Source of the DNA: Druceiella hillmani
Lineage: Eukaryota; Arthropoda; Insecta; Lepidoptera; Hepialidae
Length of the DNA stretch: 64,000 bases
Reading direction: 5' to 3'
Assembly (NCBI GenBank): GCA_039881145.1
Contig: JAYKKI010000016.1
Location: forward strand, 10,213,501-10,277,500
Position 1 is the stretch's first letter; every line of letters starts with the position of its first letter. A program made the translations under genes and the position numbers. Positions 8,647 through 43,029 of the stretch are shown one piece after another. A model generated the notes under the pieces. The model did not search any database. It had not been told where the DNA came from and was given only the letters and a program-made list of their open reading frames with translations.

Positions 8647-8703
8647 CACTATTAAATGAAACTACGTGATGTAGTATTATTTCTACTATCTTTAATTTCT
8701 TTA

Positions 8704-8744
8704 CCACGACCTAGGTTTCGTTGTATTACAACATCTTCAGGTGG
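8704..8744 (-). ncRNA. Hammerhead-ribozyme-like motif (left arm)
   Basis: Minus strand: CCAC, then core CTGAAGA, an unpaired T, helix II GTTGT-AAT-ACAAC, then core GAA, helix III ACC-TA-GGT, C at the cleavage position, and GTGG closing helix I with CCAC. All conserved hammerhead core positions are present; the extra base before helix II is the only departure from the minimal fold. Exact mirror of the motif at 8766-8806. Confidence 0.5.
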
Positions 8745-8765
8745 GATATTAGCAAAGATAATATC

Positions 8766-8806
8766 CCACCTGAAGATGTTGTAATACAACGAAACCTAGG
8801 TCGTGG
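8766..8806 (+). ncRNA. Hammerhead-ribozyme-like motif (right arm)
   Basis: Plus strand: helix I CCAC (8766-8769) with GTGG (8803-8806); core CTGAAGA (8770-8776); unpaired T (8777); helix II GTTGT (8778-8782) with ACAAC (8786-8790); GAA (8791-8793); helix III ACC (8794-8796), loop TA, GGT (8799-8801); cleavage base C at 8802. Small type-I hammerheads with such tiny helix III loops are known from Penelope-like retroelements and retrozymes. Whether it cleaves is not shown by sequence, and the long palindrome would compete with this fold. Confidence 0.5.
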
Positions 8807-8914
8807 TAAAGAAATTAAAGATAGTAGAAATAATACTACATCACGTAGTTTCATTTAATAGTGAATAATGAATTTCTACAAAATTAACGCCAAATATATT
8901 CAAAATTTATTTTT

Positions 8915-11900
8915 GTTAACAAATTAGATTCTTTGCACTTAATACTTCTCATTTTAATTAATATACGGGTGCTTTAATAAATAATGTTAAGCAGAAGCAC
9001 AGAGGTAATGAAGTTAAAGGCCTGTTCGAAATAGGTCTGTGTATGTGCAGTGATTGATTGAGATGATTGTGTGATGATTGAGTTGCATATTTATACTTTT
9101 TAGCCAAATTCCTAGAATGAATAAAAAATATTTCTTTATGACATGAATGATCGTGAAGGAAACATTTATGAAGTAGTTGATCAACGGGCGTACCCGAAAT
9201 AAAAATATTTACTTATGTGAGTCTTAGCATGGCGCCGGAAAATTAACTAAAATACTACATATTGAAAAAAACGACATTAATCCTTCATGTAATTTTAAAA
9301 AGTTTGTATAGTTTAATAACTTTGAAGTTTGTATAACTTTTCCACAACCCACTTCAAAGACCTTTCCCATTTCGTTAGTTTTTTTCGAGAAATTGAATAC
9401 TGTTTCCTCTGCGGTTTAACTCTAAAACTAGGTCCAAAATATAGTATGTGAAATATTATAATTGTTGCTTGTAATTAGGGTAAAATTAAAAAAAAAATAA
9501 TAATTGTTGCTTGTAAAGTGGTCAAAAAAAATTATAATTATTGCTTAAAAAATGGTCAAAAATGTATGTATTGTCATGACTATTCTAAATTCTTTCAAAC
9601 TGCGACTTTCTTTGAGTACATCAAGACCTTGTTTCTCAAGATGTAAAATTTAATTGACTTTAAGTCCGAAAACAAAGAAAGCCAAGCTCTGAGTCTATTA
9701 AGACATACTATCCATTTCCCGCGAAATCTTTCGTTTTCCTCTAAATAATTTCTTACATTCAAGGTATTGTGACGGAAGGAGACTTCATTTTCGAATATTA
9801 TATCTGTGCACTTCTAGAAATTTTTATCTTCTAGAAATTTAGTTAAAATGTATCTTAAACATTTTAAGTAAGACTCTTGGTTCAAGCTATCTGAGATTCA
9901 AAATCAGTGAATCGCCTGTCTGTTTAGTCGCTCAACTTAAAAATTTATGCTCAACTGTTCTTAGAAAATGGGTCCATGAAATGAATTGAAAAAGTTTTCA
10001 TTTTTCTATTACCTTCTCAAAATCTTTTGACAAAATCCTTGTCAGGTTTATTGAATTTTAATCATGTGACATCCCTCTCACCAGAGTATGCGATCTCTCA
10101 GAGTTTGAGACTTCAATTGGGAGTTTTATTATTTTGACATTTGTTGATGAGTCTCTCTCATTACGAATTCCTAAGATTATACGCTGGCCAGGGAAGCATT
10201 TAGACTGAGGTCTACTTATACTTTCTATATGTACCCTGTACAGTCTTGCTGTTCCCCAGTTATCTCATCTCATAAAATCATAATGATTACGCACGTCTGC
10301 ATGTTTTCTTGTTAAAAAAATCATGATTGCTTCCTTCCTTCTAGAAAAACTTGACGATTTTTCATTCAATTTATAAATTACAAAAGGTTGCGCAGTGCAA
10401 TAATGCGTTAATCTTAAAAAAATATTCATGTTACGCAGAAATATTCATCTAGGTAGTACTCCAAAGTACGGGAAAAATAAAAAATCATTAAGAGAACCAA
10501 ACAATTAAACGATTGTAGCATAACAATAAGCGTAAGATAAGACAGGCTAACAATGAGCGACACAAATAGTTATACTTCATAAAAGATTTACTTAGATTAT
10601 TTTGTTACTTTTTATTATAATATGGCTCAAAGCATATAAGAAATATTCAATCCTAATTTTAACTTGCTTAATTACTGACATAAATTAGAATTTTACACTT
10701 ACTACACTTTATGTTAATTTTTAGGATCACTCCGTAAAGATGAAACTCTGATGAAATACGAAAGTTTGTGAAGTAGATTCTGTAAGAAAGTTTTATGACC
10801 TTTATTTCAAACAACGTCAAAAATTTAGTTCAATATCTGGTGTTTGAAATATCTCATCTTTTTGTTAGTTTTTTAGAGCCATGTAAGTAAATGTTTTTAT
10901 ATTGAATAGACCATTAGACGTATGTAAGTAAATATTTTTATTTCTAATTAGCCATTAGTCAAAAAAATTGTGAAAAAATTGTTTCTGTCACGATTATTGT
11001 ATAGATAATTAATTAGTTAAATATGGGTCGATTCAGGAAACTCAGTTTGAATTCCATCTTCATGAAAGGTAGATGCATATTTTTCGGTATTTCTCACCTA
11101 ATATTTAGGCATTGTAATGAACTTGAAACTTCAAATTAAATAGCTTTTATGAGACTAAAGTAATGGATGTAATCTGAGATGTTAATTTGTCATTAAAAAG
11201 AAAATTGTGGGTTCCAAGCCCGTTAATTGTTTCTTTACTTATTATTCGTATTTAAAAAAGTATAACAATCAAATTTTATGTCTATTTTCTACTAGTTTTT
11301 TGTGTATTGAAGTATGTTTTTTTTGTTAAATAAATGTTTTTTTTTAAAGACATATGTATCTTATGGATTTTAAAATTCTTCAGTTACAAATAAAAATATA
11401 TTTTTACCTAATTTTTATAACTAATTTTTGAAGCTCTAAATACAATACCGTAAATAAAAGAACAAATACTACTACTACTATCTACTTAAATATTACGTGG
11501 CTTAACAAAACCTGTTTGTGGTTAAACGTTTTGAAGTATACAGCCCCAGACCATCCATGTTGCGCCTTACGAAAACGTGGTCATTGGGTTATGATAATTA
11601 ATATACTTAGGATATCGCGAACTACTCTACTGTGTATTGTGATGCCACCGCTAACACCAGGTTGACGATAAGGCCTAAATTGAATAAAATAATTGAATAA
11701 CAAAGGAAAAGAGAAATATGTTTTGTGCTTGTAGGTGTTAGGCTTCATTATTCTATTTGTAATTAATAGTGTCCAAATATAATAAAAAATTATAATAGCA
11801 TAAGTCAGAAAATAAAATGCTTTACGAAATACATTTATTTATCAGTATGTATTTATCAATTTATTCGTTTTGGAGTTATATTATGGATATTTGTGTTGAA

Positions 11901-14880
11901 GGAAATATCCTTAATATAGCTACAAAACGAGTAAATCGATATAGATGAAATAAAATAATTTCCACTTTAAAAATTAATTAATATTATTAAATATTTAAAT
12001 AATGAAATTTTGTTCTACTAAAAACTAATATATTTTTATTTATTTAAAGAAAAGCTTTCAAAACCTTACTATGCAATGTTGATTGAAAAAGTTTTCTATG
12101 TGTCATTAGAATAGCAGCTTCGAAACTCATAAAAAAACTTTACAATTTTAAAAAAACAATATGTCCATGCTACCTTAGTACCTCAAACGTTTTTTGACAT
12201 AAAATAAGTAATAAACGGTAAACCAAGCTGCAAATACCCGACCGCATAATGAGACGCGTAAAGTTTACGTACATGATTTTTGGAATATCACAAATAATTA
12301 TAATCTTTTCATTTATCGTTTGAATTAAACTAAACTTTTTAAAAAGCACGAAAATCCTTTTATTCTCCCAATAGGAACATGATGCGGCATATTATTTGTC
12401 TTATAGAGTATTAAGGGCAGTTTAAACAAGATTTTTGGACTAGTAGAGGATAACACCGAATTTATTTTGTTTTCAATTTGATTTATCTTAAATTGAGATA
12501 TTAGAACAATGAATAATGTTAATGACTCCCGTGAGTTAAATTTCATCTAAATGGCAAAGTAATGATGCCGCTGGACCATGCTATGTACATTAAGACAAAC
12601 ATTTTCAATTTTTAGTATATATACATTGCCTTAATTCTTTAAAACAGATTTCGATAGTCTCCATTTTGATTTCATGAACACTGCAATTTCATCTCTTCTT
12701 ATTAATTTGAATTACCCAAATAAATTTCTCTTGGGGTCTTTCCTTTCGGAAAATGTTTGCTTATTACATTTATGACTCAAAATTATTATTCCACACGTTA
12801 CGAATATCCATAATTTTACATAAAAAGCTTCGGTTTATTTGATAAAATTAAATTATGGTTGGTAAATATATAAAACACACGTTAAATATATAAATGCTTT
12901 AGACGTTCTACATTATATAGCTCAGTCTTAATTACAATAGTTTGGGCATTTTGGGGTTAATGTTTTTGCATAGATCCACATTTTTTGACTTGAATTATTC
13001 TATAAAATAAAAGCCGCTAAATTCATCTAATGAAAACGAATTTAGAACCCCAGTAATTCCCAACTGCTTTATGGTATTCGGGTTATCGGTCATGTTCTAC
13101 AAAATATTTTAAATGCGGGTTCTCTGAAGTTGGTTTACCCCATAACGTAAGCCCGCATGACAGGACATCAGTTACAATGTTACAAATTTTTTTCGAAGTG
13201 AACTGGTCTAAATGAAAATATTTTATGTTTATCTTAATCTACGTTTTCTTTGTTAAAATGTAAAAGATTTTATCAAAATAATACCAAGATATTTACGTGT
13301 AAATCTAAAGCTATTCATCATATGCAATTTGCAGCTTTCAAAAAGTTAAAGAAGAAAAATGTTGTGAAAATGAAACCAAATCTTAAAATGAGTTATTTTA
13401 CGCCTAAAATAGTTGTATTAGGGTTTAGATGTATCCGCATTAAGCAACTTATATATTTTATGTCGATGGAATTAGCACAAGTGATGTTTAAACCCGATAA
13501 TGCATTGTGCCCTACATTTCATTCAACAGCGCCCCACTCTCTTGCCGAAATCTAATTCTTTTTTTACTTTCATCGAAACAATGAAAGTATAGCATTAGCC
13601 TCTAGTAGCCGTGGAGTGAAAGTGAGGGAGGAAGGAAAGAAAGGTGTTTTAAAAGGAAATGTAAGTTGGTAAGCGTGAAACACATTGACGTCTTGGAGTA
13701 ATTTATGTATGTGCGCTAATAAGTACGTAAATACGTATGTACGACTACGTAAGTAAGTGTAGCTTCAAAGGCTTAAAAAATCTGAAGAGGCCATCTTATT
13801 GAATACGAAAACCGTATTTACTTTTTTTATGACACTTAACAGAAAGAACAAAACAATTAGTTTATAAATTGAAAGATACGTCCTAATTTTGAGTTATTTC
13901 ACCATCCACCACCAAATATTTCAGCAACCGAATAAGTTACTGGCTCTTTATTTGCTCTTAGCTTTAAGCAGAAAACTCTTTTCGGAGGTTAAGGCGAAAA
14001 ACTAAATCTTTTTTCTATACACTAGAAAGTTTCTGGTAGACCTCTATATGTAATAGAGAAAGATAACTGCCACTTAAGACCGTCACTATAGTTACGTCGT
14101 TTGACAACCTAGACTCTAGAGTTTGTTTTTTCCCTATAATAACTCGGATAGTATTCTATTTCTTATTCAAAATCTTCGAACCATATTTGTGGTATAAAAC
14201 AAAGTTCCTAGTTTTAGTATTAAACTATGTTTCATCTTTACTAATGCAACTCACATAAAATTCTTTATTAAAATAAATAATATTTTTAAGAGAATGTATC
14301 AGGCCTAACTCCGAACCGTTCATGTCCTTCGTTAACAAATTCACAACATTTAGAGACACTGTGCTTTTTCAGTCTTAGAAATCACTCATCATTTAACATT
14401 TTGTAGTTTAATTTCGTAATTATAAAGGCGGTAAAGTCTAATAATAATGATAAATGTTTATTTAGATATGGAAAGACTAATATAAATAGTTTTCCCACGT
14501 TATAAAACCAGAAGAACATAAAAACGGAAAGAGTTCATCGCTTGATTATTATTCGATACTATGCAATATTACTAAATTAGTAACTGTATTTTTTATTACG
14601 TCAATATATATCTATTAAAAGTAAACTAAAAATCTATTTACTACTACACTATACGGAACCTCAAAACCCAATTGAACAAGCGGTCAAATTTATCCATTGA
14701 AATGGCAATATTCAACCCGCTTGACCTTTCTACTTGATAAATTGCGCAAGTACCTTGACACATTTACGTCATCTATCACGTTCCACGAAACCTTTTACAC
14801 GAAAAGTAATTGAAGCAATTTCCCCCGACAAACTAACTTTGGCAATATTAGGCTGAATGTTGTAATTACTTTTTATTGTG
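8915..14880. other. No recognisable gene
   Basis: AT-rich sequence. A weakly protein-like frame of 101 codons at 13250-13555 (plus) is lysine-rich with no family signature and I do not call it. The patch 13690-13760 has repeated TACGTA/GTACGTAA words. No terminal repeats were found. Confidence 0.5.
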
Positions 14881-14884
14881 AAAC

Positions 14885-14918
14885 ATGTGGTAAAATATCA
14901 TAAGGTATTTTACCACAT
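14885..14918. repeat. Small perfect inverted repeat
   Basis: ATGTGGTAAAATA, an 8-base spacer, then TATTTTACCACAT. Arms are 13 bp. Could form a hairpin in RNA from either strand; no terminator-type context is expected in a eukaryote. Confidence 0.7.
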
Positions 14919-14919
14919 A

Positions 14920-17780
14920 CTTTGTTATTCGCATTAGAAATGTATGGATATTCATTCATTTTATTCTTCGGGTTTATAATTTGCAACGCTATCCAAATAT
15001 CATGAGTTATGACTCTATAGTTCGTCAATTAATTAATTATTTTATTATTATTATGTTATGTTTTATTATGTTATTTCTTCTTATTCTAATGATGTCTTTA
15101 GAAGTTACATTACTTTTGTTAAAAGGTAATATCATAAGGTCATTATCACCTATCAAGGCTAATTGACAGAGATACTGTTACGTATATGTGTTTTTTGAAG
15201 TCATCAGTAAAAAAAGTACGAGTAAAACTCGTGCCACGGACTTTCCGTGCACATTCAGGCAAATAAAAAATTCAGGACATGTGTTGTATTAAACTATTTG
15301 TAATCATTAATATTGGTTTTCACTATGTTGTGTATCTTTCACAGCCATATAAATCCCATGAAATGGGAAATTAAATTATGAAATTAATTGTGCAATTTAA
15401 AAACGATGAAATTTTTAATGATCGTATGGTGTTCCTATTAATTTTGGGCAATATTCTATTTAGGATTTTTTTTCATAATTTTGATTTCGTTGGTTTTGGA
15501 AAGGGACATTGTATTATTGTGTCTTTGTCCATTTAACATTGAACATTTTATTTATTGTGTCTTTGTCCATTTAACATATATTTTAAAATAAATTCTTTCC
15601 TAATTTTTTAAAGTTATAACTTCAAATGATGTCCTATTTTTACCAAGAAGTTACAAAATAAATTAAGGTATTTAATGGTCTCCTAATTTCCATATCAATA
15701 CTTTTGGATGCAACTACGGATATTAGGGTTAATATACTTTGCTACAAAACTAAACTTTCAGTTTATATGTCGAAAATCTTCTCAAAAAAAATGGCTGTGA
15801 CGGATAGACGACCAGACGCATGGCTAATCTTATGTGGATTTCGTTTTTTTTTCTTTTGAGATACGGAAACATAGAGATGATTATTTCTTGATTGTAATCT
15901 ACGTGATTATATCTCCAATAAGTTATTTTTATTAGGTAAACTAATCAAATACTAATTAGTAAACATATTTAATTATTTGTTAGAAAATTAACTTCTATTA
16001 AATAAAAATGTGACATCGTAGGTCGTAGGTAGGTAGGTGACATCGTAGTTGTGGTTATGAAGACAAATAAAGCAATAATTGAATTATTTGGTACCCCTGG
16101 ATGTGTATGGTGGTATATATGAATATAAAATACACATTATATTGAAAAAATATTTAAAAAGTATTTCATGGTAAAAATGAATATTTGTTTAAGAATTTGA
16201 ACAAGTATAAAATCATTAATTTAATTTGGTGCACTTGACCGAAATTTGTTTCAGGGGTGTGTACTGACACGTAAATAATCAAGGTAAAAAGAGAACAAAA
16301 TGACAAATTAAATTTTAATACAGTTGTCTACAGAGTACAATTATTTTTGTCTCTGTGATTTTTTTTGAAAATTGGATGTGATTGTGTTCCGTTTTGAAAG
16401 TTTTGCTTTTGTAGTTACGCAACAAATGTAATGACACTACGATTATTTTTGTTATATTTTCTTAATATATGATGTTTTTTTTTAAACTGACAAAATATGT
16501 AATGAGGGCGCGAAAAAGTCACTATTATTTACGAAATTAATAAAATTCGTAGTATTTAATTGTACATAATGGAGTAAAGAACTGAAAAAATTATTTATTT
16601 ATTATATGAGAAATTGATTATCTATATCTTTGTACATTCGTTTGATGTACATGGACTTTTGCCGCCATTTTCAAAGGAATTTTACTCGTGTGAGATTGGT
16701 TATTTTGTTTCTTTTTGGTTGCAAAATATTTGTTTTTTGTTATTTTTAAAAATGTGATATTATGCTAGTTTTCATCGGTATTTAAAATTGTTGGTGTGTT
16801 TTCATTCATATATAAACAAAGTATGTAATTTTAAAACCTTTACTTTTTCCATTTTTTCTAAGTCATTTCGTTTAATATTTTTTACGATTTTATGACAATA
16901 TTTTTCATCTCAAACTGCGTGAAGGGTGAGGTAAAATTTAAAAAAAAAATTACAATCGATATTAGTGTTTAGTGGCCTATTCTATTTATTGCCTTCAATT
17001 GTTTTATTTTGCACAGAATTGAGGTAAGCCACAAAAACTTAACGCGAACATAATGTTTTATTGGGATGATTGCTGTTGTATTTATTATAACATTTCAGCA
17101 TTGGTCATTCTTTTTATGATAATAACGAAAATTACACTTTTTAAAGACTTATTTTTTATAACCCTTTTTCTTTGTGGAAGAAGGCTATATTTTTAAAATA
17201 TCTTCTTATTTACACTTGGTAACTAAAAAACAACAGTACAAATACCATAACTATTCGATATCTACATTTCTCCCCATGTTATTAAAACATTTCATCACGA
17301 ATAATTTAATATTTTCGGAGTTATACATTAAAAGCGTGAGGAATATTTACATAGCGCACAGGAAAACTGGTAGTGATGTAGAGAATACCTACTTTGGATT
17401 CAGAAATATGCCACAGTAATCTTATGCAATTTTAAAAATGTTTAGTAGTTTTGAATAATTTTAATTACAGATAAAGTAACTTACAACATATGTAATTTAA
17501 TTCAGTATATTTGAAGTACCATTTAACTTGTAATAATTTTAAAATTTCTAGAACGAACTCATAACATTAATTAAGGAATATTAAGCTCAAAGTGATTTAA
17601 AAACATGACCACGAACCTTTTAAAAAATTATGCTGGTAGATAAATAATAGTATCAGTAGACAACCTATTTAGTTCTTAAATATAAATAAGTTTGCCGATG
17701 CTACTTTCTCTGTTTTGTTAACTTGAATTGTAAAGGTCTATATTAATTTTTCAAGGTAATAGATGTGTAGTTGATTACAA
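14920..17780. other. No gene; short direct repeats only
   Basis: AT-rich. It contains the 25-bp duplication at 15515-15577 and a small GTAGGT array near 16020-16040 flanked by two copies of GTGACATCGTAG. Nothing else was supported. Confidence 0.5.
15515..15577 (+). repeat. 25-bp tandem duplication
   Basis: TATTGTGTCTTTGTCCATTT plus AACAT occurs at 15515-15539 and again, identically, at 15553-15577. Confidence 0.85.
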
Positions 17781-18332: not shown

Positions 18333-20161
18333 ACTGAAATTATATGAGCATAAATGACAAACAATTTATAATTTCACCATTCAGGCTTGTCCGCAGCTTA
18401 TTGCACAGTATTACAACTGCAGAAAAGGCTCGTTTGCTAGGGGAAGCCATCGATTGATTTTAGATAACAGTTGACCGCGATCACCACCGTTTTCAAAAAG
18501 AATCATTTCAATTTTAAGAAGTGTGTTGGTATCCTCACCTGAAGTTAAAATGAAAAATAAATAATATTCTTTAATTTTTGATTAAACAACTTTTTATTGG
18601 TAAATTAGACATTGGTTACTTGAAGAAGCCTGATCATGGTCATTATCTTTAGTCATGTCCAAAGTAGTCACAAAGTAGTACGCAGAATCGTACTTTAATA
18701 TAACTTTTAACATCATCGTCTGTAAACGATCGTTGCTCAAGTGAGGTTAAATAACTGCATCATGTTCATTGCCATTAAAATAACTGTTAGGATCATGTAA
18801 GTACTGCATAAGACTAGCAATTTAAAACGGTCTTTGTTTTAATATATTTGTGAGATTCTTATTAAGGTCCCGTCTGTATTGCGTATTACAAACTTCAAGT
18901 TTGTGTAGCGCAAAATTCATAAGAGCATCCGCGATGCCTAGTCATATCTTCTCGACAAACGGCCTCGACTGTAATTTTAATAATATCAAGATTCACATAC
19001 ATATCTTCAAGAACGGACCACTCCTGTTCAGCAATTTGAATTGCGCATTGGACGTCAATGAGAACTTGTAAAATTGCTGCTTTCACTTTAATGAATCTAT
19101 CTACCATATCACATGGTGTCTTGCAGCTTGCTTGCTACTCACATGGTGTCTTACACGATAGTGTCTTGCAACAACAATGCGTTTTCCTTGCTAAGTTCTA
19201 TATTAACATATTTCTGATGAATATCAGATTTTGTAGGTGATCTTCTCAACAACCGCACAACATTTGTAACCTTCTCTTTAACAGGTACGAAATGAACATT
19301 TGTTTCAACATCTAGAAGCGTTTGCTTCCAGATGTTGAAACAAATGAAACAAATTTTATCATTAATGAAAAGTGAGTCATCATTTTCCTCCTCATCTTGA
19401 CCTTCGTAATAGCTTTTCAGTTCTTAAGATTTGGCATGAAATGTACCAATGATGGCCAGGCAGGCTATCAGTCAATCAAAGCTGATGAAGTGAAATTTAG
19501 AAAAATAGTTTAGATTTTGTCCAAGTTTTATCACGACTGAAGTACCATCAGGTGTAATACAAATGATGTCAGTGTCGAAGTTTACACCAAATTCATTTAA
19601 CCTGCCGCGAAGGTATTTTTCATATTTACCAGCGTTTACAGAGCCATATGTTCTATATAAACCAAGGTTCCTTTTAGTATTCTGACGTTGAAAAAGTAAA
19701 CAGTGACTGTTTACATTCACGCATCGCCTATTTCTAGACGATGTCCACTCATCTAAAGATATGCAAAGCTTTTGTCCTTTATTTCTCATCTCCTGTATTG
19801 TTATTGTAAATTTTCTTAATTTTATCTTTAAACTTCACAGACATAAATTTTATAAAATTTGCACTTGTGGGTAATGGGGATATATGATAAAGAAAATGTA
19901 TCATCGTATTTTTTTCGAAACCCCAGCAGTCACTCTATATTCTTCCGGTGTCAACCTTGCGCTGTCGAGGGTTATCGCGTGCAAAGACCTTAAATGACAG
20001 CAAAGTCCCCTTGTTGTACTACCCGCATACTTAATAAATTTTGCGCTGATCTTTATTGCAGTGTCACCTGTTTCTGCTTTTCAATAATGCTGCCATATTG
20101 ACATTGGGTGCGAATTCTTTTTATAAAAAGGTATATAGTTGACGTAGTTTTTATTGGACAT
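18333..20161 (-). pseudogene. hAT transposase, broken
   Basis: Starting at the ATG at 20161 (MSNKNYVNYIPFYKKNSHPM) the minus strand shows an N-terminal BED-type finger region (KAETGDTAIKI, then KYAGSTTRGLCCHLRSLHAI; the HxxxxH spacing fits but some cysteines are gone). The stretch 19789-19472 keeps the catalytic-domain landmark SLDEWTSSRNRRCVNVN and GVNFDTDIICITPDGTSVV, including the expected Asp residues. A further piece at about 19107-18895 reads FIKVKAAILQVLIDVQ and EEWSVLED-like residues. The C-terminal dimerisation segment near 18450-18335 reads NKLRTSLNGEIINCLSF. Stops and frameshifts separate all of these, so no full protein can be made. It belongs to the element bounded by TTAGGGCATGCAA repeats. 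Confidence 0.8.
19297..19346. repeat. Inverted repeat inside the hAT pseudogene
   Basis: CATTTGTTTCAACATCT is followed after 16 bases by its exact complement AGATGTTGAAACAAATG; the spacer itself pairs as GAAGC-GTTT-GCTTC. The whole can fold into one hairpin with a small bulge. Confidence 0.8.
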
Positions 20162-20176
20162 GTTTAATATACTTTA

Positions 20177-20594
20177 CTGAATGACCAGGTGTATTACGGT
20201 AATTACATGAATAGGCGCCTAAAACAAAAACATACTAATTTTATCTTCATAACAACAGACAACTTACGAAAAATATGTTCTTAAATACGATAGTTTTTTT
20301 TTAATTATATAACACCGATCATATGTTGAATTGATAAAGTTGACAAAGGGTAAAATTTTGAATCTTATGTAAATATACAAAATTAAAATTTACATTTTAT
20401 TTTAAGTTAAAAACAATTTATTGAAATAAATAGATAGGTCGGTCATTTTTTTTCAAGTTTTAAGGTCAGAATGTTATTTCCATTACCAATTTATGTACAT
20501 AATGTTTAAATATTGTGGTATCTCGGAAACAGCTCTTATGATTTAAGAAGCAATGTAAATTTTAACAAGTTATAACATCCAATCAAATACTTAC
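20177..20594 (-). other. 5' UTR intron of the hAT transposase (predicted)
   Basis: On the minus strand CGATTATCG is followed by GTAAGTAT, a consensus splice donor, at 20594. A TTCAG acceptor ends at 20177, 16 bases upstream of the transposase ATG. The related copy at 22499-23440 keeps the same GTAAGTATTTGAT donor and the same ATTCAG acceptor, which supports a real intron in the ancestral element. Confidence 0.5.
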
Positions 20595-20915
20595 CGATAA
20601 TCGCAGATTTAACCCACAGTTCAAGAATATTGAGCGACATCGTCTCGTGTGCACTGCACGCACACACAATGACAAAAGGACAAGAGTGAAAAGGGAGCGC
20701 GCCGCGCTCCCGCGCTCTTCAGCTGTATCGAACCAAAAATTCAGTTCGTCCGGATTATGAATATTCGGATACATGACAGTCTTCGATGTGTAAAATAAGT
20801 GTTTTTAATCGAATATCAATGTTTCTCCATTTATTTTTTGTTATTTATTGTTTTTTCCGAATAGATCGATAACCGATAAATAACCGATTATCTGTTATCG
20901 GTTTGCATGCCCTAA

Positions 20916-22528: not shown

Positions 22529-23440
22529 ACCGGTAACCGGTTATTTATCAGTTAACGGTCTATTTAAAAAAAAACGTTTAATATAGACAAATAAATCGAG
22601 AAATATTGACATTCGATAAAAAATATTTATAAGAATTTTTTGCAATGAAGACTAATATGTATCCAAATATTTCCTTGTCCTCCCTTTCGACCGCTGTCAT
22701 TTTGTCATCGTATACATGCGTGCTCTGTGCACGAGTCGCTGTCGCTCAATCTCCTTCCCGTGAGTGAACTGTGATTTTAAAACGCGATTATCGGTAAGTA
22801 TTTGATAGAATTTTATAACTTTTTAAAGTATACATTAATTATTTAATCATTAAAGTGGTTTCTGAGATACTACAATATTTAAATATTATATACAAGAAGT
22901 GGTAATGGAATCAAGATTCTAATCTTAAAACTTGAAAAAAAAATTGTATTGTTTGGAATACGATATTATTATCTATCAAATTCTTATTTTCATTGATTTC
23001 TTACTATAAATATAAAAATATAACATTTCTCTGTAAATCTGAGTCTTAGATGTCTTTAGGTTAAAATCTTGTTTACTACTTAAATCAAGTAAAATCCAAT
23101 ACAGTAAGATAACTTAACCTACATTACCTACCTAATTATTCAAATAAATTGCTTTCATCTTAATATAAATTTGTTCATTTAATATTTATATAAGATTCCA
23201 AATATTACCCTTTGTCAACTTTATCAATTCAATATATGATTGATGTTACATAATTTAAAAAAAAACTATTGTAATGAAGAAGATATTTTTTCATAAGTTA
23301 TCTGTTTTTATCTTCTAGCCATAGTAGAAGTGTAGATAATATTAGTAAGTTTTGTTTTCGGTACTCTCTTCATGTAATTGCTGTAATACACTTACTCATT
23401 CAGTAAAGTGTATTAAACATGTCCAATAAGATACCGAGGA
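22499..23440 (+). mobile_element. Truncated hAT transposon (copy B), inverted relative to copy A
   Basis: Begins near TTAGGGTATACAAGCCGATAACCGG and runs parallel to the minus strand of copy A: shared 5' region with GTCGCTCAAT, the GATTATCG-GTAAGTATTTGAT donor, TACCCTTTGTCAACTTTATC, then CATTCAGTAAAGT and ATTAAACATGTCCAATAA at the transposase start. Similarity stops about four codons into the transposase (near 23435). I find no matching far end downstream, so it is 3'-truncated. It carries roughly 190 bp not present in copy A around 22945-23150, either an insertion or material lost from A. Confidence 0.75.
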
Positions 23441-31857: not shown

Positions 31858-31965
31858 GACGTAATGTTATTGAATATATTTGGCGTTAGTTTTTAGAAAT
31901 TCATTATTCACAATTAAATGAAACTACGTGATGTAGTATTATTTCTAATTTCTTTAATTTCTTTA

Positions 31966-32007
31966 CCACAACCTAGGTTTCGTTGTATTACAACATCTTC
32001 ATGGTAG
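31966..32007 (-). ncRNA. Hammerhead-like motif, defective
   Basis: Minus strand. An extra A interrupts the join of helix I and the core, giving ATGAAGA where CTGAAGA is needed, and the cleavage triplet is GTT instead of GTC. Helix II and helix III are intact. Loss of the core C should prevent cleavage. Confidence 0.45.
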
Positions 32008-32037
32008 GATATTAGCAAAGATATCTTTGTTAATATC

Positions 32038-32078
32038 CCACCTGAAGATGTTGTAATACAACGAAACCTAAGTCGTGG
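32038..32078 (+). ncRNA. Hammerhead-ribozyme-like motif
   Basis: Core CTGAAGA and GAA intact, helix I CCAC/GTGG intact, cleavage GTC present. Helix III is ACC-TA-AGT, with one C-A mismatch, so it is weakened relative to copy 1. Confidence 0.45.
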
Positions 32079-32149
32079 TAAAGAAATTAAAGAAATTAGA
32101 AATAATACTACATCACGTAGTTTCATTTAATTGTGACGTAAGGTTAGTA

Positions 32150-34035: not shown

Positions 34036-34083
<48 letters not shown>

Positions 34084-34088: not shown

Positions 34089-34189
34089 GTAATATGTTGA
34101 TAAACCTGCTTAAGATCTATTAATATATTTATAGAATTACAAAGGAAAATTTTTTTTTACGTTGTTTGAAAAAAAATTAGAGACTCATT

Positions 34190-34685: not shown

Positions 34686-34879
34686 GCATAGAGCTTAATT
34701 TTTAAATCATCACACATCTGTGTAAGTAGTACATGAGTACATAGTGTGAGTAGTACATGTATTTTCTTTCAAAAAGGTTTTCTTTCCGTCGAAGTTTAAC
34801 TATTACTGAATGCCTTTGTCATTATAGGAAGAACACCTAGATTTTTTTTGCTACTTTGGCATTAACTTGATAGCTGATT

Positions 34880-35050
34880 TGAATACGTACGTGCATGTGT
34901 ACTTACGTGCGAGCGTGTGTACTTGCATGCGTACGTGCTTGTATTTATATCGATATGGATGTTGTGGTCAAAGTCTTATTTTGTTTTTGCGTGCTAGCTG
35001 ATGCGAGTACGTCATGCGTATGCTTTCGTGCATACGTATATGTATTTGTA
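34880..35050. repeat. Alternating purine-pyrimidine cryptic repeat
   Basis: Rich in ACGTAC, GTGCATGTGT, GCGTACGTGC words without a fixed unit. Looks like a decayed (TG)n/(CGTA)n tract. Confidence 0.55.
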
Positions 35051-35689
35051 TTTGTATAAATATGTCCATATTTGTAAATACCGTAATTAAAATATTATTT
35101 TATTTTAGCGATTTTTCTTTCCTCAAAATTGCGCATATTATTTGAGTACTTAGCTTATTATTTTAGACGTTATGTCCATTTTTTGTTGACGTATATCATA
35201 GATATGTTGCTATTCAATATCACTCAAGTCATTATATAAAAAAATCTATGAAGTATTTCATTTGTATTCAATTATTCCTTTTTGTAAAAAAATTATTTCA
35301 AAGTGCTGACAACAATAAAGTACTGAAAAAACAATATTACATTGTTATAATTTATAATTGAATGTAAGATTAATTTGGTAACCCAGAAAAAAGATTTATT
35401 TCAAAACAGTTACTTATACGACCGTTCTTCCGTTTTAAATAGTTTCTCACTAGTAAGTTTTGGAATATGACAATGTTATTAGGATTCACATATCCAAAAA
35501 TGCATTCGGATTTTCAAATTTATAACTTTACAATATTTCAACAGAAATTAAATATTATAAATTTCATCTTATTAATAGCATGAATCATATATGTGTTTAT
35601 ATTAGAGTTTCATTGAGCTATGAATGATATTTTTCAGAATTTGCCAACTAAATTAATGTATTTTAAAAAAAAAAATTTTAAGAATGCCC

Positions 35690-35885
35690 GTGTAAATCAT
35701 TTTCGACGGGTATTTGATCTTCTGATCTAACGATTTAACCCAGTCTGGGAAAAATCCGCCCCTTCATGTCGTTAGCCAGCGAAGAGGCGGCAAAAACCCA
35801 GACCCTCGCTTGGGCCAACGGGCGGCACCGAGTCCGCCCGCCCAACCACAGCCTAGTTAGGCCCGGCCTAAGGCCCTACAAATGT
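35690..35885. repeat. GC-rich island, probably a retroelement fragment
   Basis: A sharply bounded GC-rich block (AAAAATCCGCCCCTTCATGTCG to GGCCCGGCCTAAGGCCCTAC) sits in AT-rich DNA. Read on the minus strand it includes CTCGGTGCCGCCCGTTGGCC and GGTCTGGGTTTTTGCCGCCTC. This resembles the GC-rich untranslated ends of insect non-LTR retrotransposons, but I cannot name a family. No reading frame was found. Confidence 0.4.
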
Positions 35886-35889
35886 TACA

Positions 35890-38080
35890 TATTTGTAAAT
35901 TATATTTATTGACAGGTTTATCATTAGTGACACTAACATTTTTATTCATTTCTGACAATATCCTAAAATATTTAGTTATTATATATATGGAATATTTAGT
36001 TATTATTTAAATATGTTAATTCCTGATTTAAAAATTTCGCGTTGATAAAAGACAATTGTCTACAAAATTCTAAATATGATGCATAAGATTTAAATGAAGA
36101 TTCGCATGAATATTCACTGATGATTACAAATAAAAGTGGCCATGTGTCAATAACATATTATTTTACCTAACTGAAAGAGAGAACAAGAAGATGAAGTCCT
36201 TTTTTTCTAATAAAGCCATTTTGTTACACTCTATTCTCTCAGACCCACAATATAAGGAATAGCGACAAAGATAGTTAACATTATAGTAAATTCCTGGAAA
36301 GGTAACAATATTAAACACTGGAACATTAGAAATACACTTATAAGTAATTTTTTACCATTAACCATCTGTCCTTATATAAATAATCAGAAGAGACCAAGTT
36401 ACTGGTAGATTCCATTGAAAACATTGCCGTAACACACAGTACCCAAGATTTCTTTTAAAAAGTTAGCCAAATAAAGTAATAAAATAAAAGCGGCTAGTGT
36501 CTTGCAGAATTTTCCTAGTGATTCATTGAATCTTATATCTAACATGACGTTAAACTTTGCTGCGGTGAATAGTTGAGCTTATCAACTTGTGTTATGTAAA
36601 GAGAAAACTCTAATGTTTTTTATGGATCTTATCATAGTCTGAAGAAATAAAGAAATAATTTTGTCCTGATCAAATCACTTTTGTGGATGATTTGATGAGT
36701 GTACTAATTATTCTTTTAAAAATTAAAAATACAAATAGCCTAAGTATACTAAGAAATATGTTTGGTCTGATTTAGAGTAACAAATTACCGTACGAGAATT
36801 AATGAGATTTTGGCTTATGAATGCACTAATATGTCGAATAAAATGTACTACTAGAGGTAACCGAAGTATCATAAATGTGTTAGTTGAAGTAGAGAGTTTT
36901 TTAGAGTAATCATTTACTGTAAGGGAAAAAAATTAGTTGTTAATGCTGATTTAACGAAATGTGAGTTATTAGGTTACCTGTATTCTTATATAAAAAAGGT
37001 ATCATCCCCCGACGAAGATTGACATTTGCATTTTAAATAAGTGGTTTATCGTTAAATAAAAGTAAACTCCTTACTAAAGATATCGAATTCACAATTTATG
37101 TTTTAATTTAGGAATAAATTACACGGCAACAACACCATAAATATAATGGTTAGATCTATATATTTTAATTTAATAAAAACATAGTGTTGTATGTTTTATG
37201 AGATATTCTCAACAACGAATAGGAGTTACAATCACATAGGATACAGAATTATTAGTATCGCTGGCAATGGATAACAGTGTAATGTGTAATTAAGGACTAA
37301 GAGTAGATTACTTAGAACAAATATGATCTTATAATTCATATGAAAAGAAATAATTTAGGACATATTGACGACTATATCTCTCTCCCTAAGATATGGTGGA
37401 ACAGAGAGTTCTCACAAAAGGAAAGCAATGGCTATGTTTAAATTTTTAATAAAATACATAATAAGTAATAAGGAGTGTAGTGTATTTTGTTTGCTGAACA
37501 ATATTAAACTCAAGATGTCTTCTAAATTTAATGAGAAACTAATGAGAGATCCATTTTATACATTAAGGATACAATTGAATTTAGGTTGGACGTATTATAA
37601 GATATACCTTTTTACACTATTAGAGAATTTATTAATAGCAACATTTAAAATAGTTTACCTAATTTTTTTTTGCTAAAACTTACCTTAACTTTTTTTCTAA
37701 CAGGGCAGGATTAAAAATATTTTGTTTTACTAAAGACGTTATTTTTATTTCATCATTTTTAAAGATAAGGTTTGTAGTACTTATGGGCATTGTTTTTGTC
37801 TGATGGGCCATAAATAACTTTTAATGTGGTTCCTACTGCATAAAATCATAGGAATCATTTGTTTCACTTTATCGCAAAGTGTGATCGCATTGTAATCATT
37901 GTAGTATCTATGAGGCGAGTATTTATACATTAATACATCCTACGTCTTCCACTATTCTGATTCGTTTACATAAGGTTTTCGTTTACATACAGGTACCTAA
38001 GATCATATTTATTATTTTCTATGTGAGGCTTGAAACAATAAATTAAAAAGTAATTGGGGTAGTAAAAACTGATATTCTGA
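35890..38080. other. No recognisable gene
   Basis: AT-rich. The 103-codon frame at 37365-37676 (plus) has no family signature and a composition like its surroundings, so I do not call it. Confidence 0.5.
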
Positions 38081-38081
38081 G

Positions 38082-38230
38082 CTGTACTGTGATTAGTGAT
38101 TTAATAAAACTTTTAATCAGTGCTTGGGCAATATTACTAATAGAAGTACATATGTAGCATTAATCCAAATATAAAGCAAATAATGTCACCATTATGTGGT
38201 AAATAAAAAAATTAGGAATTTCTGCTGTAA
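38082..38230 (+). repeat. 148-bp inverted repeat, left copy
   Basis: Matches the complement of 41771-41918 with few changes, from CTGTACTGTGATTAGTGATT to GAATTTCTGCTGTAA. The two copies are 3.5 kb apart. They are either long terminal repeats of one element or two insertions of the same short repeat. No target-site duplication is evident at the outer ends. Confidence 0.75.
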
Positions 38231-38239
38231 TATATAATA

Positions 38240-38282
38240 ATAGTGATGTCTCAGTGTAAAGCTTATACTGGGACATCACTAT
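38240..38282. repeat. Palindrome next to the left inverted repeat
   Basis: ATAGTGATGTCTCAGTGTAA and its complement meet at AAGCTT (38259-38264), with a few mismatches. It is followed by CTCTGCCTGTTTGTCTGTCTGTGTGGG, a tract of the kind found in insect repeat 3' ends. Confidence 0.65.
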
Positions 38283-38798
38283 CACTAGATAATATAAGAC
38301 AAATTCTCTGCCTGTTTGTCTGTCTGTGTGGGCGAAGTATAAACTGGTTTCTTTTCCTGCCAAATTTCGGATAGGGTAAGCACAGAATATGTAGTAAGGC
38401 CATCTTGGAGGGCAAGTATGTATATAAATTTGGCAGATCCTGATTTTGAGAGAGAATCTACTCTTTTTAGGGAAACTTATTCAAATGATATAAAAGAGAT
38501 AGTTGTGATATGAACAGGTGTCCAATTTATTTTACGAACAGTTTTATTTGTTTGGCGTAATTGACATATTTCTAATAAATTTTCTTTTTCAATTCACAGA
38601 TCTTTCCAGTAATATTTACCGGCTATTAGTTTGTATATAATTAAGGAAGCCTTAAGCTATTGAAAGTTTATGATTTTTCCCTAGATTCCCCGGGAATTTA
38701 CCCAGGAGTTGCATAAATTATATCATTACGATAAGTGTATATTTTGATATCAGTAATATGAGACAAGTAGAAAAGAGACTATAAAAAATATAAGTTTC

Positions 38799-39110
38799 TT
38801 ATATTCGAATTTTGATCAGACGATTTATTAAATCTGGCGTGTCCATTTCTTTTACGAATTCACAGATGAATAGAATGTTTCTTAAACTCTTCTGCATATC
38901 TGCATAGGAGCACGTATCGCAGTCATGAATGTTAGTAAAGAATATGTGGGTAATTTTATTCTGTATATCGAGTGTAATAAAGGAATGGAAAGTTTTCTCG
39001 TACTTTAGCATATCGGAGTTAAGATTCTCTGAAGTGTCCTCTTTTACATAAGAATTCGAGCTATCTAAGTTGTTTGAGGTAGAAATAGAGACATTTTGAT
39101 AAATATTCAT
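38799..39110 (-). CDS. Hypothetical open frame of 103 codons, unrecognised
   Basis: Begins ATG (MNIYQNVSISTSNNLDSSN) after an upstream in-frame stop. The C-terminal half contains HIFFTNIHDCDTCSYADMQ and ends PDLINRLIKIRI. There are no membrane segments, signal peptide or motif I can name. The composition (mixed acidic, Ser/Asn-rich start, several Cys, His) is more protein-like than other frames of this length here. It could be a fragment of an old element between the inverted repeats at 38082 and 41918, a host exon, or chance. Confidence 0.15.
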   Translation of the reverse strand: MNIYQNVSISTSNNLDSSNSYVKEDTSENLNSDMLKYEKTFHSFITLDIQNKITHIFFTNIHDCDTCSYADMQKSLRNILFICEFVKEMDTPDLINRLIKIRI

Positions 39111-39429
39111 TGTACGATTACGGTTTCACAAGTTGTTACAGTTTTAGAGGATATTTGAGGAAATTCAGAACAGGAGTTAAATGTATTTTCATAGTGTAAA
39201 AGATCTTCATTGTTGGGAACGGGACCGTGATAGGATTACTCACTTACTCGTCCTTATTTCTGGATATATCTCTTCTTTGATATTTTCAATTAATCATATG
39301 TATGGAAATTTTAGAGGCATCAAAAAAGTATTCGATTTTTTTTTATAATTTCATTTATCCTATTGTGTTTCAATCCAAAGGCGTTCCTTAAGATATTGAT
39401 AATTTTAAATTTGACGTAGTCGTGAACTG

Positions 39430-39570
39430 TATTATATATGTATGTGTGCGTGCGAGCGTGCGAGCGTGCGTGCGTGCGTGAGTTAATTTTCGTTAAAAAG
39501 CCAAACAATCACGCCTATGTGCACGCACGCATGTAAGTACCCACGCAAGTATGTATGCATGCTTGTTAAC
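39430..39570. repeat. Alternating purine-pyrimidine tract (TG/CG rich)
   Basis: TGTATGTGTGCGTGCGAGCG and a GCGTGCGTGCGTG run, interrupted by about 40 bp, then CTATGTGCACGCACGCATG and GTATGTATGCATGC. The CG/TG alternation is the type that favours Z-DNA. Confidence 0.65.
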
Positions 39571-39599
39571 ATACAATTGCAGTATACGTGAATAAATCA

Positions 39600-41370
39600 A
39601 TTAAGTATAATGAAAACATAACTATATAAACATACATAGTTACGCAAATGCAAGATGTTATATTTTAATTGAATTTTTATAAAAATATATTAATTATTAA
39701 AACGATACCGTTTTAATTTCATTTTATGTTCCTAATGTTAAATTTTTACACTTATTAAATATAAAATAAAGAATGCGTTGTGTAAATTCGAAGAAGGAGT
39801 TACATCACTTGTTAGTCTTAAATGTGTGCCTCTTTTGCTCCCCTATAATATAAAAAAAAGTATTTACTTATATTTAAATTATAAAACAAGTTTACCACTT
39901 CTGACGCGGTCCGAAAATATTAAAAGAAAAGAATATTTAAAGAATTAACTAATTGTCTAGTAATCTTAAATACAGGCACAGTTCATGGCATAGACTGTAA
40001 ATTTATTTTATATCTAAAATCAATAGCAAATGCCGGTATATTACTTTCGCTACTCTGTACATGCATATACGTATAATAACTAAAATAAAGAAAGTTTGCC
40101 TCATGAAAACATTACTGGCTCACGCGTTCAATTCTAATTAGAATTTAAAAGTGAACTTCTCGAATTGCAAGCATAATGGGTATTTATTAATAAAATGACT
40201 CAGAAATATGAAAATAAAATTTTATACCAAAAAAAAATTTTCGATTTGTTTTAATTTCAGGAGCAATTTATTAACAAAACGTAAAGTTAAGTTCGATATA
40301 ATTGAAATTTTTCCTGACTAAGAACAACTATTAATTTTTAATCCTAACTAAAAATAAAAATACTACTAATATAATTAATAACTATTTCTTAAACTATAAT
40401 TGATAATTGGGATTGACGCATTATATTAAACGAAAACAAGTGTGGAAGGAAAAACTACGTCCCTTTTAAAAGATTTACCAACTCATGGTTTTTGGTGAAG
40501 TAACTATAAAATATTTTTCTTTTCTTAATAGCTGTTTGCAATGATTTTTAATATATTTCGAAAAGTATTTCATATTTTCTTCAAATCGGATTCCTCCACT
40601 ATTTTTTTCCTTTTCATATATAAGTAGTTGCGTTATTTGCAGTAACTTTCTAATAATGAAACTAGTAAGCGATGAAAAAGATTAACCAAGACAATTAAAT
40701 TTTTAAGAATTGTCAACTATTGAAAATAAAATTTGCGAATAAACATTACAAACTCAAAAGCCGACAAGGTTCCTGCAGCTGTACGTGCAAAATTTATATG
40801 AAAGATTCGATTTCTACTCGAGCGATGCTCAACAATTTCACAACTGTTAGATTAAAATGGTTCAATGTCTGCTTGTATTTACGTTTAAAAAAAATTAATT
40901 AACTTTACATCAATTTCACTTATGGATTTAATTTCATTTTTGTTTATTTATATTGGTGTAACTTTAGTAATGATAGGACGTTTGAGAAATACTTGTGGCC
41001 TTTTGTAAATGGGCGTTCAGTATGTTTCGAATATTAATTGGCCTTGTTACTGAAGGCGTTGGTAGCCCTGACAAATGATTGAGAAGTATATTTATTTTTA
41101 GTTATTAATTCTGATGGTCTGTCCAAGTACAAGCCTGAACAACCACTTTATGGTTTTCATCGCAAGATGCTTATGAAGTACTTATAGCTTTTGCAGCCAT
41201 GGCTGAAGAAAACTATAAAAAAATTAAACTTGATTTACCGTGTGAGATTTTCTTAAAATAGCTTGTCTCCTATTTTGCAAATAAGTAAATTTCAGGGTAG
41301 AGCAGAATTCTGTTGTGATACCTCCAAAAATGGAAGTACACAATCAAAGCCCATTCAAGGTACCAATGGT
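39600..41370. other. No recognisable gene
   Basis: AT-rich. The stretch 41100-41340 has fragments of readable frame (for example YEVLIAFAAMAEENYKK at about 41170) but too short to assign. Confidence 0.45.
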
Positions 41371-41375
41371 ATGTC

Positions 41376-41538
41376 AACATATTAAAACCAGAAAATATTG
41401 TAAAACCACACATATAAAAAGGACGATTAATGAAATGGGCAGTAAAACTTAGTTATTAGAACTAAGTTTTACTGCCCATTTCATTAATCGTCCTTTTTAT
41501 ATGTGTGGTTTTACAATATTTTCTGGTTTTAATATGTT
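41376..41538. repeat. Perfect 79-bp-arm hairpin
   Basis: Arms 41376-41454 and 41460-41538 are exact complements with a 5-base loop (ATTAG). No mismatch was found. Flanks show no convincing target-site duplication. The arms match no other repeat in the window. Possible origins are a recent inverted duplication, a MITE, or a long hairpin RNA gene. A foldback assembly artefact is also possible. Confidence 0.9.
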
Positions 41539-41770
41539 TATAATTGGAATTTTGACGTAATATTATCCACGAGATACCAAAAATTAGCATGCGTCCACAT
41601 CACGATAATCATAACAACGCAACGCAACGAAAATATTCTTGAACATATAAATATTGTTAAAAATGAAACCGAACCAAATTATAAAATTAATTATTCTCTC
41701 CTCGAAAAGGAAATTTTTTTACAAACAGAATTCTTGTCGAAATTGTTCGGTTATTAAAATTGAAAATATG

Positions 41771-41918
41771 TTACAGCAGAAATTCCCAATTTTTTCATTT
41801 ACCTCATAATAGTGACATTGTTTGCTTTATATTTGGATTAATGCTACATATGTACTTCTATTAGTAATATTGCCAAGCACTGATTAAAAGTTTTATTAAA
41901 TCACTAATCACAGTACAG
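41771..41918 (-). repeat. 148-bp inverted repeat, right copy
   Basis: Complement of 38082-38230, from TTACAGCAGAAATTCCCAAT to CACTAATCACAGTACAG, with about ten differences. Confidence 0.75.
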
Positions 41919-42278
41919 TTGGAAATAATTAATGGGGTTATTTTATACTCAGGTAATCTTAACGAGTTTGAATTCTGGTTAGATGTTTTAATTCCCATGA
42001 CTTATTAATAGAATGAAAAAAAGAATCTGTTACTCAGTCGAAATTGCTACTCATGACATATTCATGTATATACATAACATGGATCAAAAACAAGATTATT
42101 ACTGAATTAATTCAATATGATATCGTAGAATTTCTTTGTAATGATAACTCTTATTTTACTGGGCGTCCGGTATACGAGATTTCATTATAAAAAGTATCGA
42201 ATACTCCGGAAAGTAACATAGCATATCTGGGTTTTGATTAATGCATGAAATATTGTCTACTATGTCAAATCTGGTAAC

Positions 42279-42323
42279 CGTTACCATACTCTCAGCTTTT
42301 ATATCGGCGAGAGTATGGTAACG
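42279..42323. repeat. 15-bp inverted repeat
   Basis: CGTTACCATACTCTC, 15-base spacer, GAGAGTATGGTAACG. A further TACTCTCGC follows at 42329. Confidence 0.75.
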
Positions 42324-42802
42324 ATGGATACTCTCGCATTTTATGTCCAAACCTAATCAAAGTGTATTTTTGTGCACTGAATTAAATAAAGTATCCAGTT
42401 TACGAGGTTATTTCTATGTTGACTTTCTCTGAACTAATATCATAGCCTCACATGACAACTGTAGCCACAAGCACCAGTCCGTAATAATTTCATAATTTAG
42501 AATTGCAAATAAATGAAATAGAAGAATTATCAAGAGCGATGTGTCAAACGACTAATCGATAACATATTGAAATTAACTTTAATTTCAATTAATCAAATTT
42601 TAAAAATAAATTTTCATGCTAGTAATTTAAGTAGAGTTTCATGCTGTATTTTAATTTCATAATTTGTTCATCATATTAATGGGGCTCAGTGTATTTAAAT
42701 TTATTCCCGTTGAAAACTTGCATAATTATAAGAAATGTCTACATTCACAATTAAATGAAATTCCGTGATGTAACATTATTTCTACTTTCTTTAAGTTCTT
42801 TA

Positions 42803-42843
42803 CCACGACCTAGGTTTCGTTGTATTACAGCATCTTCAGGTGG
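42803..42843 (-). ncRNA. Hammerhead-ribozyme-like motif
   Basis: Minus strand: CTGAAGA and GAA core intact, helix I CCAC/GTGG, helix III ACC-TA-GGT, cleavage C present. Helix II has one mismatch (GCTGT against ACAAC). Confidence 0.45.
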
Positions 42844-42875
42844 GCTATTAGCAAAGATCAATCTTTGCTAATAGC

Positions 42876-42916
42876 CCACTTGAAGATGTTGTAATACAAC
42901 GAAACGTACGTCGTGG
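42876..42916 (+). ncRNA. Hammerhead-like motif with altered helix III
   Basis: Helix III reads ACG-TA-CGT instead of ACC-TA-GGT, both changes keeping the pairing. Helix I, helix II, GAA and GTC are intact, but the core C is changed to T (TTGAAGA), which should abolish cleavage. Confidence 0.45.
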
Positions 42917-43029
42917 TAAAGAACTTAAAGAACGGAGAAATAATACTACATCACATAGTTTCATTTAATTGTGAATAATGAATTTGTACAAAATTAATGC
43001 CAATTATATTCAATAAATATCTACATTAA

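Follow-up and report, generated by a model that had tools for sequence, protein, structure and literature searches.

What kind of element consists of two hammerhead-bearing arms that face each other head to head, only one of them tailed, and how is its mirror symmetry made? The question is raised by a 64,000-nt stretch of the genome of the lepidopteran Druceiella hillmani (Hepialidae; GCA_039881145.1, contig JAYKKI010000016.1, positions 10,213,501 to 10,277,500 of the forward strand), here called the window. Within 35 kb of it lie three palindromic units, each of about 260 bp, which we name U1 (8647–8902, plus strand), U2 (31870–32135, minus strand) and U3 (42746–43014, plus strand); their left and right arms are 1L, 1R and so on. 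An earlier note, made from the letters alone, had described these palindromes and their one-sided tails, and direct reading, a repeat search of the window and BLAST all bear that description out. We suggest that the units are probably akin to Penelope-like elements (PLEs). It is argued below, with less assurance, that the palindrome is written anew at each insertion.

The six arms, each of about 105 bp, are seen by direct reading and were also recovered in the repeat search. U1 is the least diverged copy: its arms are identical at 106 of 106 positions inside the element and pair at 98% over 117 nt when some flank is counted. The arms of U2 differ at 4 of 107 positions (103 agree, with one indel), and those of U3, the most diverged copy, at 11 of 106 (95 agree; 91% pairing over 116 nt in the repeat search). 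A BLAST search of the window with one arm, the core and the tail recovered the six arms and the three tails; all else listed was short chance matches with E of 0.011 or worse. The units are too short to encode a reverse transcriptase (RT) or a GIY-YIG endonuclease, and no enzyme gene lies inside them.

The tail stands on exactly one arm in each of the three units and is 38–41 nt long: 39 nt in U1 (8864–8902, plus strand), 38 nt in U2 (31871–31908, minus strand) and 41 nt in U3 (42974–43014, plus strand). By BLAST, the tails of U2 and U3 are 93–95% identical to that of U1 over 43 nt. All three units are flanked by target-site duplications of 11–13 bp. In U1 the duplication AAATTTATTTTT at 8635–8646 is repeated at 8903–8914 with 12 of 12 bases identical. 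In U2 the tail-side copy (31859–31869; TAACATTACGT on the minus strand) matches the copy on the tail-less side (32136–32146; TAACCTTACGT on the minus strand) at 10 of 11 positions and can be extended by two further common bases (CA). In U3 the left copy AAATGTCTACATT (42733–42745) and the right copy AAATATCTACATT (43015–43027) agree at 12 of 13 positions; the score was taken over a 16-nt stretch in which 14 positions match. When site pairs were drawn at random from the window, with equal freedom of offset and length, 8 of 20,000 did as well as U1, 48 of 20,000 as well as U2 and 11 of 20,000 as well as U3. The perfect duplication, found in U1 alone, is consistent with arm divergence rising from U1 through U2 to U3.

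In every unit the duplication abuts the bare arm on one side and sits outside the tail on the other; that is, each unit has two unlike ends. Therefore U1 to U3 are not terminal inverted repeat (TIR) transposons, in which identical inverted repeats abut the duplication at both ends; unlike ends of this kind are those of target-primed retroelements. The same asymmetry, seen in three of three units, already disfavors the proposal that the units are foldback elements or Mutator-like miniature inverted-repeat transposable elements (MITEs) with long TIRs, resembling a hammerhead by chance. Mutator-like elements make duplications of about 9–11 bp, and the long inverted arms and 11–13-bp duplications would suit such an origin, as would the Rfam scores below the gathering cut-off that are reported next. 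The units have the inverted-repeat foldback form in common with Mutator-like foldback elements such as Tm1, as these appear in the available part of PMC3169594, and differ from them by the one-sided tail. Taken with the absence of hammerhead descriptor matches from simulated sequence (see below), the tail makes the MITE proposal a very improbable one.

Every arm carries the motif CCACCTGAAGATGTTGTAATACAACGAAACCTAGGTCGTGG or a variant of it. Thus a hammerhead-like motif is indeed found in each arm, as the earlier note had claimed, while the complete core, that is, CTGANGA, GAAA and GTC, is intact in four of the six (1L, 1R, 2L and 3L). In U1 the left-arm motif (8704–8744, minus strand) and the right-arm motif (8766–8806, plus strand) would fold with a 4-bp helix I, CTGAAGA, a one-nt bulge, a 5-bp helix II, GAAA, an A-U pair and two helix III pairs, a 2-nt loop and GTC. 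Helix III is formed by the self-complementary ACCUAGGU. Both U1 arms have what a type-I hammerhead calls for (CTGANGA, GAAA, NUH and three helices); in each of the remaining four, either the core or a helix is disrupted, as follows. In the tail-side motif of U2 (2R; 31966–32006, minus strand) an A is inserted inside CTGA and GTC has become GTT. The motif of the other U2 arm (2L; 32038–32078, plus strand) keeps its core and has a broken helix III pair (CCTAAG). The left-arm motif of U3 (42803–42843, minus strand), also with an intact core, has one helix II mismatch. In the right-arm motif of U3 (42876–42916, plus strand) C3 is replaced by T, and helix III reads CGTACG, a double change that preserves its palindrome. 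An ATG at 8776–8778 stands at stem II of the U1 right arm, and the cut, placed by analogy with RF00163 and PMC11167929, is predicted after C8802, 27 nt from the A of the ATG.

A descriptor of the hammerhead, written after the motif was known and allowing a 2-nt helix III loop, picks out no part of the window but the two U1 arms and has 0 matches in 25.6 Mb of dinucleotide-model sequence (both strands). The core letters by themselves are weaker evidence, as they occur at three unrelated window sites (13782 and 19482 on the plus strand, 7708 on the minus strand). Three points weigh against the assignment: CTGANGA is broken in two of the six arms, a one-nt bulge (T) precedes helix II, and no Rfam hammerhead model, nor any other Rfam family, matches anywhere in the window at the gathering score. 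The last of these is the covariance-model check that the earlier note had proposed, and the cut-off was not reached, the best of three arms tried having 16.6 of the 34 bits required. At E ≤ 10 the whole window gives 49 Rfam matches and a 271-nt unit gives 25, with no hammerhead in either set. When arms are scanned as stretches of 57–58 nt, which was done for three of the six, RF00163 (Hammerhead_1) has the top bit score among 4227 families in all three, at 16.6, 14.3 and 11.9 bits (E of 0.054, 0.33 and 1.9). It is also the best family by E-value in two of the three; the third arm, at 11.9 bits, is at chance level, another family doing a little better by E-value (1.8). For the bulged form, little weight attaches to the gathering cut-off, because it also returned nothing for 10 viral-contig loci with 14 well-paired descriptor matches, unverified as ribozymes, 13 of which have the identical bulge. 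Whether the motif acts as a ribozyme in the source RNA is a prediction on which we are evenly divided.

The models that do appear over the units in the whole-window scan are microRNA precursors only. The scan of the 271-nt unit also brings poor-scoring small nucleolar RNA, CRISPR, long non-coding RNA and other models, including the CoTC ribozyme (13.2 bits against a cut-off of 58). All are far under their cut-offs, and they are put down to the long inverted repeat.

The viral loci come from searches in collections that hold no animal genomes and are therefore little informative about the units. In them an exact 26-mer of the hammerhead has no match in viral contigs or prokaryote genomes, a 36-letter arm/tail pattern has none in viral contigs, and a 40-letter hammerhead pattern with 11 free bases has none. 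A looser hammerhead pattern finds at least 120 loci in viral contigs. Among these preselected loci, 13 (L019, L021, L032, L037, L046, L076, L078, L081, L082, L094, L111, L112 and L116) hold 17 descriptor matches, scored with a slightly simpler helix III test than in the window and simulation scans. L081, L082, L111 and L112 have two matches each, 0.4–1.3 kb apart, and L082 and L111 share motifs. A one-nt gap before helix II is present in 15 of the 17, a gap that the search pattern favors, and the matches are unverified as ribozymes.

The features so far described have close counterparts in PLEs. In the Penelope of Adineta vaga, as far as the accessible portion of PMC3846280 describes it, an inverted pseudo-long terminal repeat (pseudo-LTR), 37 bp shorter than the direct one, stands head to head with it, palindromes occur at the junction, a 31-bp tail is optionally present on one pseudo-LTR, and several inserts have duplications of 8–10 bp. 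The units agree in all of these respects, their duplications of 11–13 bp at AT-rich targets being slightly longer. Nowhere does the main text of PMC3846280 use the word hammerhead. At AT-rich sites the purified protein of the Poseidon element PAc of Anolis carolinensis cleaves the two target strands and extends them both; its reverse transcription begins at two internal sites, the interval between which is the tail (PMC11167929). PLE tails are optional and 30–40 bp long, between two RT start sites (PMC11167929). In the PAc hammerhead, C3 and G8 precede the start codon, which stands at stem II; the cut falls 26–27 nt further on, cleavage took place only when protein was present, and the ribozyme is dispensable for insertion in vitro (PMC11167929). 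The units share with PAc the ATG at stem II, the cut spacing, the AT-rich targets and a tail bounded by two start sites, which in U1 we place at +88 and +127. Published PLE hammerheads are minimal, often lack helix III, occur in tandem and may act as dimers, according to the part of PMC7761336 available. Those of Lunse 2017, known here from parts of PMC7761336 and PMC6155905, likewise have a full core, almost no helix III and a self-complementary segment that possibly serves dimers. Thus the earlier note's assignment to a retroelement of this group is supported by the tail, the duplications, the ATG at stem II and the cut distance.

The units also differ from each of these relatives. The A. 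vaga inserts, in the same portion of PMC3846280, hold an open reading frame (ORF), whether or not truncated, or captured DNA, whereas the units consist of two arms and a tail only. PAc is autonomous and tandem, with a frame open from the ATG, whereas the frame in the units closes after two codons. The Lunse 2017 hammerheads are in tandem, as far as the partial sources go, whereas the copies in a unit are inverted, so that a single unit transcript cannot form the dimer. Whether the units are minimal, non-autonomous PLE pseudo-LTR pairs, made of nothing but the hammerhead-bearing pseudo-LTR twice head to head, is to our minds an even question. Several facts count against this reading. The frame that should run open from the pseudo-LTR into the tail reads ATG TTG TAA in U1, a closure expected for a non-autonomous element. 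Each arm continues for just some 20 nt beyond the hammerhead on its upstream side, and the pseudo-LTRs of A. vaga, at about 180–220 bp, are much longer. Some A. vaga inserts with an inverted pseudo-LTR lack a duplication, as do the solo pseudo-LTRs mentioned there (both in the available part of PMC3846280). Neither an RT or GIY-YIG gene nor any longer copy is known to bear these arms, and only three copies are available. In a Pfam search of 10 of the 178 stop-to-stop ORFs of the window (at least 55 amino acids), one matched (DUF659) and none matched RT or GIY-YIG.

A type-I hammerhead, small size and low GC content would also fit a metazoan non-LTR retrozyme, a hammerhead-bearing tandem repeat moved as circular RNA, and retrozyme duplications, when present, exceed 4 bp (from the available part of PMC7229834). 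Metazoan retrozymes and the units are alike in being small and non-coding, with type-I hammerheads and low GC. In the same source the former are arranged as tandem repeats, their hammerheads are canonical and they give circular RNAs. The repeat search found no direct tandem copies of the hammerhead repeat within the window, the order being head to head instead; furthermore, the hammerhead is minimal, of the PLE kind, and the arms neither start nor finish at the predicted cut site. A retrozyme origin is accordingly highly doubtful, and PLE kinship is retained in what follows.

The earlier note knew of no described family with this architecture. Pseudo-LTRs set head to head are already known, as is the tail, and so are PLE hammerheads; the first two, together with duplications, are described for A. 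vaga Penelope in the part of PMC3846280 available. What stands of the claim is that a literature search of titles and abstract openings found no hammerhead-bearing palindromic element and no element of about 260 bp, present in several copies, that has such parts alone, a search that does not establish absence from print.

Is the palindrome, then, inherited or remade? The six arms were aligned in the hammerhead sense, and a column was called informative when exactly two arms carry the minority letter, the ragged inner-end columns 1–9 being set aside. Only five columns qualify (15, 66, 74, 76 and 112), among many variable ones. All five group the two arms of one unit, and none is common across units; under random arm pairing the chance is 0.2 per column and 0.0003 for all five. 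The excluded column 2, a gap common to 1L and 1R, would likewise pair one unit. The arms of U1 are identical despite two variants private to that unit. The central junctions differ in all three units: U1 has 7 nt present in the left arm only, U2 has no spacer, and U3 has two extra nt. In five of the six arms the inner start lies within 1–2 nt of ATCTTTG.

At the center of U1 (8752–8758), GCAAAGA belongs to the left arm only, and the right arm begins 7–8 nt later than the other five. The 7 extra nt match the inner end of the U2 and U3 arms.

The simplest reading of the arms, and the one their letters favor, would be that both arms at each insertion are made from one kind of RNA with an ATCTTTG 5′ end. 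Because the unit-specific variants are mirrored in five of five columns and the three junctions differ, rebuilding of the palindrome from one template at each insertion is the reading to which we incline, by a little. The earlier note had it that the repeat became an inverted pair and then spread; the mirrored variants and junctions tell against that order of events, and three copies cannot settle it. In such a palindromic master, the palindrome would have arisen once and been mobilized by a PLE, each copy being made whole from an RNA with 5′ end CACAATTAAATG and the tail at its 3′ end, and the arms kept alike by conversion in the hairpin. A master would account for three copies with the same ends, tail side and near-equal length, for the lack of any other arrangement in the window, and for the constant presence of exactly one tail, and the junction differences could be later indels. 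The master is disfavored because an inherited palindrome would carry single-arm changes, so that conversion must be invoked every time; nor does it readily give five mirrored columns with none across units, or a U1 left arm with 7 inner nt missing from the right. We consider a master unlikely, though to be kept in mind.

Rebuilding at each insertion has its own difficulties. Arm-to-arm conversion with small central indels offers an alternative route to the same pattern, and three copies cannot settle the matter. The junction differences could be small post-insertion indels, for example, 7 nt missing from the U1 right arm. Under independent choice of start points, exactly one tail in three of three units has, by our own arithmetic, a probability of 0.125 at best. 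The single-arm private changes (columns 10–116) number 8 in the hammerhead core and 7 outside it, and none of the five source-level variants falls within the core, a difference that is not significant (Fisher p = 0.055). Short of significance, this is the distribution expected if the source were under constraint and the copies were free of it.

The rebuilding of the palindrome may be pictured as follows. The template would be a short sense RNA with its 5′ end near ATCTTTGC, followed by the hammerhead and then the tail. A PLE RT/GIY-YIG endonuclease, supplied in trans, would use this RNA and cut AT-rich DNA in a staggered fashion. Each target end would then prime its own antisense complementary DNA (cDNA), one from the distal start point, with the tail, and the other, lacking the tail, from the proximal start point. 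The two cDNAs would run to the RNA 5′ end and join there, yielding a palindrome with one tail between duplications of 11–13 bp. The hammerhead would belong to the source RNA, perhaps as a dimer with a palindromic helix III, and would decay after insertion. Ribozyme cleavage would leave an RNA end at GTGGTAAAG, distinct from the template 5′ end ATCTTTGC. The anatomy, the duplications, the mirrored variants and the differing junctions are observed; the PLE enzyme, the two-ended priming and the ribozyme activity are inferred parts of what we take to be the best explanation. Pressed to its end, the proposal is that the element has no fixed palindrome, only a single-armed source RNA of about 150 nt whose mirror image is rewritten at each insertion from both cut target ends; we offer this tentatively, as possible rather than probable.

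Identical arms could also arise by self-priming, in which the cDNA 3′ end snaps back and copies itself. This was proposed for the A. vaga Penelope palindromes and is favored in the available part of PMC3846280. Simple snap-back gives neither a tail on one arm nor the centrally longer tail-less arm of U1; the center of U1 is hard to reconcile with such copying, unless by a later deletion, which is possible. In addition, the authors of PMC3846280 note, in that same part, that self-priming on a sense template would yield a tail-to-tail and not a head-to-head arrangement. Self-priming is thus improbable here, more so than a palindromic master, and two-ended priming is preferred.

The proposed decay of the hammerhead after insertion touches on how the units fold. 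The full unit is predicted to form a 105-bp hairpin at −178 kcal/mol and not a hammerhead, so the inserted copies should be poor ribozymes. The suggestion in the earlier note that RNA of either strand carries one sense hammerhead is thus right on paper, with the hairpin predicted to form in its stead. As for a dimer, the exact double hammerhead is the predicted co-fold of two 41-mers without flanks for 1L and 1R, whose letters are identical (−23.0 kcal/mol), and for 3R, in which C3 is broken (−22.0 kcal/mol); 0 of 500 shuffles gave this exact co-fold. On the other hand, the double hammerhead is not the minimum-energy co-fold for 2L, 2R or 3L, the energy gain of the dimer is by itself unremarkable (128 of 500 shuffles equal it), and with flanks of at least 4 nt, the longer of which take in a few bases of the other arm, other pairings beat it. 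Co-folding is therefore not used here as proof of a dimeric hammerhead.

Head-to-head pseudo-LTRs and the optional PLE tail have been described without an agreed insertion mechanism (PMC11167929 and the part of PMC3846280 available), and the role of PLE hammerheads is not established, according to the accessible text of PMC7761336. An element of two ends only, in three copies of differing divergence, is a compact natural record of the PLE insertion reaction. Its mirrored variants and tail asymmetry make the choice between self-priming and two-ended priming decidable by counting genome-wide copies. If the mirror is written afresh, each locus would record both RT start sites and the RNA 5′ end, and the hairpin loci would hardly be ribozymes any more, yet ready-made sources of double-stranded RNA.

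The window has a GC content of 28%, no transfer RNA was found in it, and it holds further repeats besides the units. A second perfect palindrome, without a hammerhead, lies at 41376–41538, 1.2 kb from U3; its 79-nt arms are 100% complementary around a 5-nt spacer. No duplication of at least 6 nt was found around it, and this palindrome, too, may have arisen by a recent snap-back or two-ended insertion. It is enclosed, within 3.5 kb, by inverted arms of 109 nt (38127–38235 and 41766–41874; 94% complementary), for which no duplication was found. Inverted arms of 178 nt at 20446–20623 and 22765–22942, 82% complementary and 2.1 kb apart, likewise have no duplication that was found and are perhaps a decayed DNA transposon. 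A degenerate direct repeat at 44431–44876 has a period of about 250–275 bp, its two copies being 86–93% alike. Segments 61080–62468 and 18898–19834, both on the minus strand, are likely pieces of hAT-type transposases; apart from the DUF659 match, they were judged by reading frames only, with no Pfam match, and this applies to all of 18898–19834. A transposase remnant of this type in AT-rich DNA agrees with an invertebrate, probably insect, host, though weakly, since hAT elements can move between species. The closest named relative of the DUF659 hAT-type ORF at 61563–62027 is a protein of Eumeta japonica, a moth (81% identity over 93%); other named matches are in aphids and nematodes.

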